Assembly (NCBI GenBank): GCA_003117195.1
Contig: BDSI01000122.1
Span: 22,030-86,029 of the forward strand
DNA length: 64,000 nt
Reading direction: 5' to 3'
Source: Eudorina sp. 2006-703-Eu-15
Lineage: Eukaryota; Chlorophyta; Chlorophyceae; Chlamydomonadales; Volvocaceae
Shown: positions 1 through 61,392 of the stretch, piece by piece
Numbering within the stretch: the first letter of the stretch is position 1
Layout of the letters: the number at the start of each line of letters is the position of its first letter
Made by a program: the position numbers and the translations under genes
The notes under the pieces: generated by a model
Told to the model about the DNA's origin: nothing
Database searches by the model: none
What the model saw: only the letters and a program-made list of their open reading frames with translations

Positions 1-3000
1 TGAGGAACCCCCCCCCGCAACCCTTTCGCCACTCAAGACGGAAAACCCCCATCTGCCCATCGCCCCGAGGCCCCATCCTCATACCTAGGCATCAGCCGTA
101 TGCCCATATCCAGTCTCCCATGCAACCTTCCCCTCGGCGCCATCCCCCACCCCCGATGCCCCGTCCTTCCTGTCCCCTCCTCCCCATCCCCCCCCTCCCG
201 CCGCGCCTACCTCGGTACACCCGGCCGTAGCTGCCCTTGCCCAGCAGCGGGCCCAGTTTGACGTCATCGAACGGGTCGATCTTTGTGTTCAGGATGGCGA
301 ACCCGGTGCCGCGCTGGAGGGGGGAGGGGGAGGGGGGAGACGGCGGGGAAGGAGGGAGGGAGGGAGGGAAGGGGGGAGGGGGGAGAGAGGGGGAGAGGGC
401 GGGGAAGGAGGGAGGGAAGGGGGGAGGGGGGGCGATTCAGACGAGTAAGGGACGGAAATGGAATGCCCCAATGACACGCGAGGGGGTGGGAGGGCAGAGG
501 GGAGATGAGGGTCAGGGGCGTGCGGGCATTCAACAACGCGCAATGCAGGCACATGGCCGATTCCAGACCGCGCCTCCGCGACCACACACCCCCTCCTCCC
601 TCCCTCGTTCCCATGCACCCTTCTTCCCCCGCCCCTCGCCTCCTCGCGCCCTCCTCTACCACCCCCCTTTCCACCCCCCCACCCTACCCCCCCCACCCAC
701 CCCCCCACACACACACACGCACACCCACCTGGTGCGGCCGGGTACCTCGCTATCCAACACACCCTCACGTCACGTCACGTCACGTCACGTCACGTCACGT
801 CACGTCACGTCACGTCACGTCACGTCACGTCACGTCACGTCACGTCACGTCACGTCACGCCCTGCCCTGCCCTGCCCTGCCCTGCCTAACGAACCCACGG
901 GCCTCCCCCCCTACCTGCGACTTGGACGTGAGCTCCGCCGAGTTTCGCGGGGCGGAGCTGAGGGTCACAAAGTAGTAGAGCGGCCCACCGACGGAGGGGG
1001 CCGCGGACAGGATGGGGGGGATGCCCACCTACATAGGGGTGGTGGGGGGGTATAGGAAATTTGGGGGTGGGGGGGGGGAAAGGAGGGGAAAGGGGGTTGG
1101 GCAGTGGGGGGGAAGGAGAGTAGGAAATTCGTGTACATTTTGGAGCTGCGCTGCTGCCAGAGCAACAGTCGGTTGGATTACTCTCCCCCCCCCCACACAC
1201 ACACATAATGGGGGGGAGGGGCTCGCAGGGGCCTGCAGGCTAGGAGGGTTGGGGCAAGGGGGTCGGGTCCCTGGGTGGTCCCCGGAGGACACCGGAAGGT
1301 GGGGCGGGCGGGATGGCATCCCCGCTCCTAGCCCCAACGCATGTCGCCATCCCCGTTGTGACTTCCCAAGGCAGGCACAGCGAGACACGGCCCCCGGACC
1401 TGTCGCACACGGCCCTCCGCCCCTCACTCGGTAACAGAACCCCCCCATCCCACACACACACACACACACACACACACACACATACTGGACTGCTGGACTT
1501 CGCTTCTCGCGGCTCAACGGGTCCGTTACCGACTACCCCATGATGCCCCGAAACCACCCTGATTCCCCCTCTCCTCCCATTGTACATGAAAACAGCGAAT
1601 TCCCCCTTGCCCTGACCCCTTCCCTTCCCTCCCTCCCCACCCAAGGCCCAACACACACACCCTCCCCTGTGTTCCCTCCTCACCAGCGGCATGTACGAAT
1701 CCATCGTGGAGTTGTGGGCGCTCCGGAACTGCAGGTTGATGTACCGCCGCCCCCCTCCTCCCCCGCCACCCCCCCCTGAGCTGGACATCAGCAGCGACCG
1801 GCCGTTGGCGCTGCCCGCTCGGCTGCCCCCTCCGCTGGGACTGCTGCTGCCCCCCGTCCCCGTCCCCGTCCCCGTCCCCTTGCTGCCTGCCACTGCGCCT
1901 CCGGCTCCTCCCCCTGCTCCCGCTCCCCCTGTTCGCGGGGAGGCGGGTCCCTGCAGGTAGCTGACCAGCAGGCTGAAGGACTCCTGCGCCTCGATGGCCG
2001 AGTTGTAGCGCATGCGGGAGGCCTCCGGGGACTCGTCGGGCGTCTGAGGAGAGGAGGGGGAAGACGAGGAGGGGGACGACGAGGAGGAGGGGGGGAGGGA
2101 ATTGGCTTGAGACGTGTAAAAACCTGCGCTGATTGCGGAGGAGGAGGGGACACAGATCTGGAGGACATACGACGTACACGGGACCCATGGGACCCATGGG
2201 AGTTGAAACCTCTCCCCGATCCCCGATCCCAACCTCCCCCAACCGCTCGCAGACACCCCCCGACCGACATATCCAGACTCACCCCATCCTTCCAGGCACG
2301 GCCACTCAGCCAGGCACAGGGCCGCCTCCTTCCCCCCTTTCTCCCCCCCTCTGTGCGTTGATCCCCTCACCCCCCCCCCAACCGTCAAGGCCCTCCCCTC
2401 CCCTCCCCCTCCCCAAGCAGCTCAGTAAAAATATGTCTACCAATTTCCTAAATCCCCTCCCCTCCCCCTCACCCCAGCCCCCCTCCACCCACCCCTCCCC
2501 TCCCCGCCCCACCGTGAATGCCTTCCAGAAGGCGCTCCCCGCCAGGCTGTCCTTGGGTATCCCCGTGGCCCTCTCCCAGGCCTCGTTGACGAACATGATG
2601 GGCCACACGGGCAGCGACATGTTGACCAACATAATGCCCTCGCTGGGGGGAGGGGGGAGATATGGGGAGGGGGGAGGGGGGGAGGGGGCGAGGGGGGTAT
2701 AGGAAATTGGTGGACAATATCAAACTGCGCTGCTGCTAGAGCGACGGTTCGACCGGAGAACATTGGCACAGTACGGTAGATCGCCAGCGACGACGAGGGG
2801 AGGAGGGGGGGAGGGCGCAGTGGGTTGAGGGTGCAGTGGGGGGAGGGGGAGGGGGAAGAGGAAGGGTGAAGGGGGAAGGGCGGGAGGATATGATGGTGGT
2901 TCGTGGTTCGTGCGAATTCCTCGATTCACCTGCTCCCCCCCAAGAACACACACACGCCACCAGTTCCCGACACGCCCGCTGCCCCCCTTCATCCCCCCTC

Positions 3001-59600: not shown

Positions 59601-61392
59601 GACAGACTCGGTGCGGGCCCCAGCCGCCGTCCACCGGCCCCTCCAAGGGGCCCCAGGGGGGGAGCGATCGAGCGCAGCGCCGCTCGTGCGGCTGCCGCCA
59701 CCCACCATGAAGGCCGCATAGAAGCTGATGATGTGCACGTGGTCCAGCGTCGAGTGCAGCTTGATCTCCCGGAACAGGTGCAGCCGCTGCAGCTCCGGCA
59801 GCTGCGACAGGCGGTACACCTTGACGGCCACGACGTTGCCGCTCGCCTGGCACTGGGCCTGCGGCGGCATCCGAGGGGCGGGGCGGGGACGGGGCGGCAC
59901 GGGGTGGGGTGGGGTGTTCGGGGGTATAGGAAATTGGTAGACATATTTATACTGCGCTGCTGCCAGAGCGAATATCCGATAAAGACTCGAGTGCACCAGG
60001 ATCTCCAGCGAAGTGACGACGTCCACCTTGTAGGCCTTGACAAATAGTGACTGAAGTTATTAACACCGAATCGAAAGAAATCTGCCTAATGCCAGTTCGG
60101 TCACGCGGCCGCTGGTGTTGGGGGGAGTGTTGCAGTTCGGCGGGCACTTCGGGCGGTCCTGGCCATCAGAATGAGGTCCGTTGCTCGAGCGGTCGACTGA
60201 CGAGGGGACGCCTCGCCGTCTCGCATATGTATGTGTGGAAAAAAGGAAACTGAGCGTGTGTTTGATGTTAGACCGACCCAGACATGAGCGTGCATGTGTG
60301 CGTGCGTGCGTTTAGAGAAGAGACCCGCGTGCGTGCGTGTGGGGCGCATCCGGGGTCACACCCGGGATTGGGGCATGCGATGGTGGTGGTGGTGGTGGTG
60401 GTGGTGGTGGACATCGACCAACAAGGGACGCGGGTAGCAGTACGACCAACAAGGGATGCGGGTAGCAGTACTGCATATTGCCGTACATCACTACTGCGGG
60501 GTAACACTGTGGGAATGCGAACTGGGTGTCAGCCTGCAAGCTGAGCTGGCTTGTGTATACGCGTGTGTACATTTGTACATGTGTGTGTGTGTGTGCATGT
60601 GCATTCATATCCGTGTACATGTGCCGGTGCTTGTTTGATGATGTAAAAAAACGAAGCAGCGGAATGGGCTGAGCCCCGCCAAGCAGACGTTGCAGACTGT
60701 ACTGACAACCGGAACCCAAAAGTTGCTAACAGCACTGGCCAAGAAATGTGAGTGGGGGGGCGGGACCGCTGTGTGTGTGACCTCCAGAATCACAGGCCTG
60801 TGGTACTGGCGCAAAACGCCCAAGATCCACCTGGTTTCCGAGGGTTTTCCGAGGAAATTTCAACGTTTTCGGAGCGTTCCGGGACCCCGCTCGACTCTGA
60901 TGATTCCCGCCTCCTCCCCATCGCGCATACCTTGAACACGGTCGACGAGTGGCCTTTGTGTATCTGATCGAGCACCACATAGTCCTCCGACGACCACTTC
61001 GGTCGGCGCATTGCTGCGGGTAACCCCGGAGACACGCACAACAAGATATCGTTGTTCTCCATGCCAGACAAGCTGCCGCTGGGACCCTCCGGCATGGGAG
61101 CGGCGCCGCTTCGGGAGGAGCGCTGTGCCAAGCTGCTGGCTCCAGCCACGCCCGAGTCGCGCGTTGGAGTGATCGCCTCGAGGTAGTTGTTCGTCTCAAC
61201 ATCCTTGATGAAGGAGTAATGTTCAATGCCCAAGCACGTTTTTACCGACGCTGTGCGCCTGGTTGGAAGCACGAGGCCAGTCGAGGATGCCGTCGGCACG
61301 GGGGCCTCGCCTGGACCATGCTGAGCGGCGACGCTTTCAGCTGCACAAGGACGTTCAGATTCGGCTGAGAAGCAACACGCGAACAGCCGCAT
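53650..61392 (-). CDS. Aurora-like Ser/Thr protein kinase (CALK/ALK-like)
   Basis: Ten exons in transcript order: 61392-60931, 59858-59706, 58782-58693, 58054-57978, 57320-57211, 56593-56496, 56032-55930, 54918-54788, 54598-54470, 53979-53650. They give 560 residues with closed phases. Residues 1-130 are a non-catalytic leader beginning MRLFACCFS. The kinase domain covers about 135-400: YVVLDQIHKGHSSTVFK glycine loop (only one Gly kept), VAVKVY (Lys167), HRDIKPEN (Asp262), KLADLG (DLG for DFG, Asp280), GTLDYMAPEVL, ADAWALG, LEHPWIK. The GTLDY-x-APE activation segment is the aurora hallmark. The tail has DEPDFLTYV, an acidic DDDDE and a Ser/Arg-rich end. Aurora-like kinases of Chlamydomonas act in ciliary disassembly and signalling, and aurora kinases act in mitosis; which role applies here is not visible. 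It is divergent to the kinesin gene. Confidence 0.88.
54266..54362. repeat. (CCCA)n tetranucleotide array
   Basis: About 24 ACCC units in the last intron of the aurora-like kinase gene. Confidence 0.95.
57325..57475. repeat. Minisatellite of about 33 bp (GATGGGAGATGCGGGTGGAG)
   Basis: Three to four units next to the 3' splice site of the kinase exon carrying DIKPEN. Copies of GTGCAGGTGCAGG lie at the acceptor itself, which offers several possible AG sites. Confidence 0.85.
58578..58643. repeat. 17-bp tandem repeat (GAGAGTCCTAACGGAGT)
   Basis: Four units in a kinase intron, about 50 bases after the donor of exon 58782-58693 on the gene strand. Confidence 0.92.
58843..58897. repeat. (AC)n microsatellite with reversed TTTAGAATTGCAACCCGCCC spacer
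   Basis: AC run preceded by CACGGGCGGGCGGGTTGCAATTCTAAACACAC, the reverse complement of the spacer found at 12319-12371 and 26927-26950. Confidence 0.85.
59268..59415. repeat. 13-bp tandem repeat (CTCGGATCTAGGT)
   Basis: About eleven nearly perfect units, one with A for G, in an intron of the aurora-like kinase. Each unit contains an almost palindromic GATC core. Confidence 0.95.
59920..60095 (-). repeat. Long copy of the intron-associated dispersed element (sense to gene)
   Basis: Starts GGGGTATAGGAAATTGGTAG on the plus strand and matches 20201-20390 for about 170 bases. On the gene strand its pyrimidine end (TACCAATTTCCTATACCCC) lies about 60 bases upstream of the 3' splice site of kinase exon 2. 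Confidence 0.75.

Follow-up and report, generated by a model that had tools for sequence, protein, structure and literature searches.

Copies of a dispersed repeat with a constant 3' end were found in the introns of several genes within the window, i.e., the 64,000-nucleotide (nt) stretch of the Eudorina sp. 2006-703-Eu-15 genome that we analysed (contig BDSI01000122.1, positions 22,030 to 86,029 of the forward strand). The element is very probably a non-autonomous retroposon of the long or short interspersed element (LINE or SINE) type, or the 3' end of an unseen LINE, that inserts into runs of C by target-primed reverse transcription. Its copies have a fixed 3' end and graded 5' truncation, are flanked by target duplications, lie in C tracts with a marked excess on the sense strand, and occupy introns that already existed wherever this could be tested. 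The first-pass annotation of this DNA had recognised the shared end just upstream of acceptors in five unrelated genes; it considered an introner-like family, or one resembling miniature inverted-repeat transposable elements (MITEs), which would bring its own polypyrimidine tract and might have created or remodelled introns.

The repeated end and its insertion sites

The existence of the shared end was confirmed. In the window, the 23-mer end gave nine matches at up to three mismatches versus none in 100 shuffles, and a search of the genome (181.2 Mb, 3,033 contigs, both strands) at the same threshold returned 4,660 places (2,341 and 2,319 by strand) versus none for the reversed control. The structure was determined from 84 copies at up to five mismatches, taken from the window and 40 further loci (L numbers below), of which 76 remained after tandem copies had been merged. 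The constant 3' end consists of GCTCTGGCAGCAGCGCAG, approximately eight A/T-rich bases and TGTCTACCAATTTCCTATA, followed by C; the inward extension described in the first-pass annotation is thereby confirmed. The 5' ends vary, as copies begin at many points. The 10th, 50th and 90th percentiles of length were 23, 43.5 and 86.5 nt, the extremes being unreliable, since the length was set to 23 when no alignment passed the core and two copies were themselves the reference. Among the 76 copies, no fixed 5' end was found (inverted repeats got no separate search). Subfamilies A and B could be aligned over ~190 nt and therefore represent one family. Longer subfamily B copies measured 378 nt, ~646 nt and ~1.2 kb, the last one sitting in an intron of a gene that we take to encode a Y-family DNA polymerase.

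Folding of two 3' ends yielded no structure signal (z-scores of −0.18 and 0.38). A single Rfam search with one long copy, which may not reach the true 5' end, gave no tRNA, 5S or 7SL match, and viral contigs contained no exact match to 22 bases of the element. Several local rearrangements were noted. At L034 437-710 (G000:C3:1723236-1723509), a ~42-nt tandem array in seven units comprises the element 3' end and its C-rich flank, and five element ends ~29 nt apart occur at C5:1189288-1189421. The long copy at L054 has an internal segment repeated on its 5' side and other repeats at its borders. Partial duplications inside the 3' end at L032 937-971 and on the minus strand of L023 near 5302 (TGTCTACCAATGTCTACCAATTT; TGTCTACCGTCTACCAA) resemble slippage or template jumping as reverse transcription starts.

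Target duplications were evaluated by comparing the left flank with the right flank, counted from the terminal CCCC, in the 63 of 76 copies whose recognised start lay between 24 and 400 nt. Summed over these copies, the match score was 409 versus 256 ± 11 in 2,000 permutations of the right flanks, none of which reached 409. Individually, 27 of the 63 copies scored above the 95th percentile for mismatched pairs, where 3 were expected, and 13 above the 99th, where 0.6 were expected. The 27 copies scoring at least 7 had duplications with a median of 12 nt (range 7-21), such as CCCCACCACCCAC, CCCCCAACTCGC, CCCCTCCTGCCCG and CCCCGCCGGGG. A fixed 3' end combined with 5' truncation and target duplications of variable length is an established sign of target-primed reverse transcription.

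Because the loci had been picked by a match including CCCC, the C run at the target was checked on the 40 copies outside that choice. CCC occurred within the first six bases after the 18-base core in 35 of them, versus 10.8% of random positions, and the C content of the left and right flanks was practically the same (55.6% and 55.7%). The terminal C run is thus part of both the target and the element, and the claim that the family brings its own polypyrimidine tract was not supported.

Position in genes and orientation

Genes were modelled with a purpose-written, trained two-strand hidden Markov model (HMM), whose non-coding model is strand-symmetric, so the element itself should not draw gene calls to one strand. 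According to these models, the 76 copies comprised 50 sense and 16 antisense copies in introns, six sense and one antisense in exons, and three intergenic copies; only ~9% of the sequence was left as intergenic. Four of the six sense-exon copies (L013, L025, L037 and the window copy at 59920) read as missed introns. In a Pfam check of ten proteins picked as likely to bear domains, 10 of 15 element-intron junctions lay inside one domain (DUF1499, topoisomerase, ABC membrane in two cases, ABC_tran, Ost-alpha in three cases, protein kinase and GAF) and five did not. The closest protein relatives of one gene, with 80-81% identity, come from Pleodorina and Volvox, as would be expected for a volvocine host.

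The sense-intron copies ended 14-655 nt from the acceptor, with 41 of the 50 located at no more than 150 nt; these represent 54% of all copies, compared to 7.7% of random positions. Among the antisense-intron copies, 11 of 16 lay within 163 nt of the donor. This geometry follows intron composition. In element-free introns, the C content was 48% at 3-20 nt from the acceptor and 33% at distances above 120 nt; for G, measured from the donor, the corresponding figures were 45% at 6-20 nt and 38% above 120 nt. Introns are thus C-rich at the 3' side and G-rich at the 5' side, and targeting of C runs on either strand explains where the copies are located. A branch-point motif search in the element-free introns returned mainly C-rich words.

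The supply of tracts does not, however, explain the strand. In the 304-kb sample that served as the comparison sequence instead of the whole genome, introns contained 372 sense and 588 antisense element-free C tracts, whereas the copies numbered 50 and 16, respectively (odds ratio 4.9, p = 7e-9). Five more tract definitions gave p values from 2e-9 to 5e-12, and the ratio of sense to antisense tracts fell from 0.62 to 0.38 as the definition became stricter. Sense copies were also found within 150 nt of the acceptor more often than sense C tracts (82% versus 63%, p = 0.015), though stricter tracts reached 76%. No clear trend with divergence was observed, the sense to antisense counts being 31:9 at 0 mismatches, 10:6 at 1-2 and 9:1 at 3-5. 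Relative to the number of C tracts, occupancy was 50:372 for sense introns, 16:588 for antisense introns and 3:72 for intergenic sequence; the last value, resting on three copies, was compared with antisense (p = 0.46) and with sense occupancy (p = 0.04).

A genome-wide count independent of gene models was consistent with these data. The acceptor-like word YNCAGG, searched 8-38 nt downstream, gave 180 matches for 898 exact 17-mer ends (20.0%) versus 120 for 1,439 element-free C tracts (8.3%), while the reversed word did not distinguish ends from tracts (55 matches, 6.1%, versus 67, 4.7%; p = 0.13). The donor-type word CNCACCT, whose genome-wide count was compared with C tracts only, was not enriched (61 matches, 6.8%, versus 102, 7.1%; p = 0.80). 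The tracts for these word tests come from the 304 kb, and one copy may match twice (one such pair occurred among the 100 matches listed). In the 84-copy set, the acceptor-like word was found in 14 copies and its reversed control in 7, the donor-type word in 6 and its control in 1. The strong sense bias just upstream of acceptors reported in the first-pass annotation was borne out, and it also emerged from the genome-wide search.

For sense copies near acceptors, we additionally asked whether the modelled acceptor is the first AG met past the element. This held for 36 of 41 copies versus 25.7 expected when only distance is considered, but element-free C tracts showed an equal rate (303 of 343), and the feature is thus not particular to the element. 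One copy (L032, position 971) lies 21 nt before an acceptor in a gene with a Pfam match to RRM_1; the gene presumably encodes a U2AF65-like protein, which binds polypyrimidine tracts.

Introns of paralogous genes and copies in the window

Paralogous genes allowed the age of the introns to be compared with that of the insertions. Only two paralog pairs, L011/L012 and L019/L023, were present among the predicted proteins at E ≤1e-15, and the matched introns of L011/L012 contained no copies. The L019 and L023 genes, both of the Ost-alpha type, are 75% identical over 221 aligned positions and their introns match. All four introns matched by program differed in element occupancy (the maximum score of 100 shuffles was 12). 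The intron following MAYLQ has a copy in L019 only, those following TNFSQ and FPPR have copies in L023 only, and that following WECKK has a weak sense copy in L019 (score 15) and an antisense copy in L023 (score 31). Three more introns, matched by eye, differed as well: that after FWQ, with a copy in L019 only (both genes read TTCTGGCAG then GCGCG, and the absence from L023 rests on the copy list), that after VDDVG, with a copy in L023 only, and that after LFG, with an antisense copy in L023 only, where the exon ends agree only approximately. As shared introns differ in occupancy, they predate the insertions, and the element did not create introns in the one gene pair where this could be tested. 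Both genes have CAG followed by GCGCG at the same exon end (near 4980 in L019 and 7062 in L023), and this sequence may represent a shared GC donor.

The layout of the introns pointed in the same direction. In the 50 sense copies, the element started at least 67 nt from the donor (median 338) and occupied a median of 8% of the intron; the largest share, 42%, is inflated, because the copy concerned also provided the reference. None of the modelled splice sites is formed by an end of the element. The proposal that the family created introns was thus not upheld for the introns tested, and introns were remodelled only in the sense of being lengthened.

The copies in the window are as follows.
1047..1069, minus strand: marginal copy limited to the last ~15 bases, GAF/PAS gene, 18 nt from the modelled acceptor; direct reading
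1121..1163, minus strand: 3'-end copy, sense, 92 nt from the acceptor; score 29
2416..2456, plus strand: antisense copy, GAF/PAS gene, 56 nt from the donor, flanked by an 18-nt target duplication
2694..2799, minus strand: subfamily A copy of 106 nt, sense, 51 nt from the acceptor
4849..4891, minus strand: copy, sense, 103 nt from the acceptor; match clear from ~4875 down
4953..4998, minus strand: copy, sense, ~206 nt from the same acceptor as the 4849..4891 copy
10674..10692, plus strand: diverged copy, sense, 163 nt from the acceptor; score 17
11152..11181, minus strand: copy outside gene models; alignment
18147..18195, plus strand: diverged copy outside gene models; alignment
20201..20665, minus strand: long diverged subfamily B copy of ~465 nt, antisense, CtpA gene, 32 nt from the donor
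21752..21785, plus strand: copy, sense, CtpA gene, 77 nt from the modelled acceptor
23267..23292, plus strand: copy, sense, CtpA gene, 56-58 nt from the acceptor; score 17
25861..25877, plus strand: marginal partial copy, sense, 29 nt from the acceptor; score 15
37202..37232, minus strand: copy, sense, WDR7-like gene, 28 nt from the acceptor
56626..56649, minus strand: copy, sense, kinase gene, 32 nt from the acceptor; the exon starts inside the kinase domain (LDYMAPEV)
59921..60114, minus strand: subfamily B copy of ~194 nt, sense, kinase gene, ~60 nt upstream of the acceptor according to the first-pass annotation (intron missed by the model); 12-nt duplication with 1 mismatch

These copies derive from 20 coordinates listed in the first-pass annotation, at all of which the 49-nt 3' end was aligned (in 300 shuffles, the 99th percentile of the score was 12 and the maximum 14). 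Fourteen sites were clear, with scores of 17-45 (1119, 2411, 2694, 4848, 4953, 10671, 11152, 18147, 20201, 21765, 23262, 37200, 56624 and 59920). Two were marginal: 25859, with a score of 15, and 1046, where the aligner took a neighbouring copy and direct reading matched only the last ~15 bases. The remaining four were not established, as 3711, 24950 and 56775 (score 13) and 55059 (score 10) fell below the shuffle maximum, the first three of them being above the 99th percentile. All ten main sites therefore stand, two only marginally, and the four lost sites come from a list of antisense or extra copies. Of the other sites in that list, 1119 and 4953 are in sense. The distances given for the main sites agreed within a few bases in eight cases out of ten (18, 51, 103, 58, 29, 28, 32 and 163 nt by gene models). 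At 21765 the modelled acceptor is 77 nt away, with an earlier AG at 35, and at 59920 the gene model wrongly read through the intron.

Rfam applied to the window and four loci detected a tRNA-Asn gene alone. It is located at 20952-21027, inside the modelled CtpA intron (20169-21862) and beside the antisense copy at 20201-20665. A short-period simple-sequence array, with matches offset by 4 bases, occupies 54264-54367.

Mechanism, alternatives and related systems

Under target-primed reverse transcription, a partner enzyme would nick the G-rich strand of a C tract, and the exposed GGGG-3' end would anneal to the CCCC terminus of the element RNA and prime complementary DNA. Reverse transcription would usually stop after 20-100 nt, giving short 5'-truncated copies, and joining of the second strand would leave a duplication of ~12 nt. 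Since introns of this alga are C-rich ahead of the acceptor and G-rich (C-rich in antisense) past the donor, introns already in place are the commonest landing pads; the sense preference exceeds the tract supply and calls for a second cause, either selection or transcription-linked targeting. The enzyme, the nick, the priming step and any effect on splicing are conjectural parts of this scheme.

Several points weigh against it. Only 13 of the 63 duplications exceed the 99th percentile, and the C-rich flanks leave the remainder uninformative; where the element stops and its flank begins is uncertain for some of the truncated copies. All 40 added loci were picked by an exact 23-mer including CCCC. 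The gene models are HMM predictions from the sequence, and four or more of the six sense-exon calls seem to be modelling errors. No coding domain was recognised, judged by eye only, in open reading frames of the longest (~1.2 kb) copies, nor was a reverse-transcriptase gene with this 3' end found among the 150 of 1,052 RVT_1 candidates scored. The closest pair of RVT_1 and element end on contigs C1-C11 was 13.4 kb apart among the ~100 of 4,660 ends listed.

Other origins of the family fit the data less well. An introner, which would create introns and bring its own polypyrimidine tract and acceptor, could account for the crowding of sense copies immediately before acceptors across many genes, and the accessible text of PMC9860276 reports introners from green algae; it is nonetheless very improbable in view of the differing occupancy of the L019/L023 introns (4/4 by program and 3/3 by eye, one approximate), the distance of the element from the donor, its small share of the intron and the C tract on both sides. 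A MITE or another DNA transposon would likewise be short, dispersed and devoid of recognised coding sequence, but the lack of a fixed 5' end, the graded truncation and duplications in C-rich sequence whose length varies (from 7 to 21 nt among the 27 best) make this slightly less credible still. Neither of the two affiliations suggested in the first-pass annotation was thus retained. Repeated origin of a host splicing signal, with no mobile element involved, would agree with the position near acceptors; it can practically be dismissed given the long shared upstream sequence, the target duplications, the antisense and intergenic copies and the presence/absence differences between paralogs.

With regard to the sense excess, the choice lies between selection and integration. 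Selection, by which both strands are hit equally and antisense copies near donors disturb splicing and get lost, has a little under an even chance. Near donors, antisense tracts abound but seldom carry a copy, and since AG is missing from the last ~31 nt of the element, short sense copies introduce no rival acceptor. However, 25 of the 41 sense copies near acceptors are long enough for internal AGs (candidate acceptors inside the element are CAGCAGCGCAG), the excess shows no clear trend with divergence, and intergenic occupancy, although based on small numbers, departs from sense rather than antisense occupancy. Bias at integration, with an enzyme preferring C tracts whose G-rich strand is transcribed, e.g., through strand-specific nicking in transcribed DNA or R-loops, is plausible but somewhat less so. 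In its favour, the excess is already present in the least diverged copies, and intergenic occupancy is nearer to antisense than to sense; on the other hand, the small number of intergenic copies (three) and the small intergenic fraction left by the HMM limit this argument. A more specific idea, that integration is coupled to transcription or splicing and the retroposon recognises, on the coding strand, the polypyrimidine tract of active introns as its landing site, seems rather doubtful. If it were true, the orientation of copies would record host transcription, and a non-LTR (long terminal repeat) element would be using a splicing signal as a safe haven.

With several thousand copies, and most of those examined lying in the most sensitive part of the intron, the family constitutes a natural experiment on the tolerance of the branch site and acceptor to added sequence. 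It mimics the signature of introners without making the introns tested, and this could mislead surveys of intron gain in which introns are grouped by the similarity of their ends. A strand bias arising at integration would be a new route by which a retroposon reaches harmless sites; one arising by selection would measure the cost of insertion at donors versus acceptors.

In its behaviour, the element matches a short non-autonomous retroposon of the LINE/SINE type whose target is a simple motif. In the open-access literature searched, no account was found of an algal retroposon directed to C tracts or acceptors. Waldo, Kibi and similar animal non-LTR retrotransposons target microsatellites or repeats and share with the Eudorina element a simple-sequence motif as the target, but theirs is a repeat array, whereas here the target is a short C tract with a second role as a splicing signal. 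SINEX-1 to -6 of Chlamydomonas reinhardtii, described in the accessible text of PMC3747384 as SINEs sharing 3' tails with RandI/Dualen and L1 LINEs, are also non-autonomous green-algal retroposons with a conserved 3' end. Compared by description only, they differ in having 3' repeats of (ATT)n, (A)n or (CTTT)n (PMC3747384), while the Eudorina element ends in, and inserts into, C runs. The L1-type Zepp and ZeppL LINEs of green algae, as portrayed in the available portion of PMC8226300, resemble it in frequent 5' truncation that leaves mostly 3' ends; going by that description, Zepp nests into its own copies and forms clusters, in contrast to the Eudorina element, which is dispersed and lies in gene introns where examined. 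Introners, finally, also appear in algae as many related sequences at intron ends, but according to the accessible text of PMC9860276 they generate the intron and either provide its splice sites or recruit them, and in the cases tested the Eudorina element does neither.

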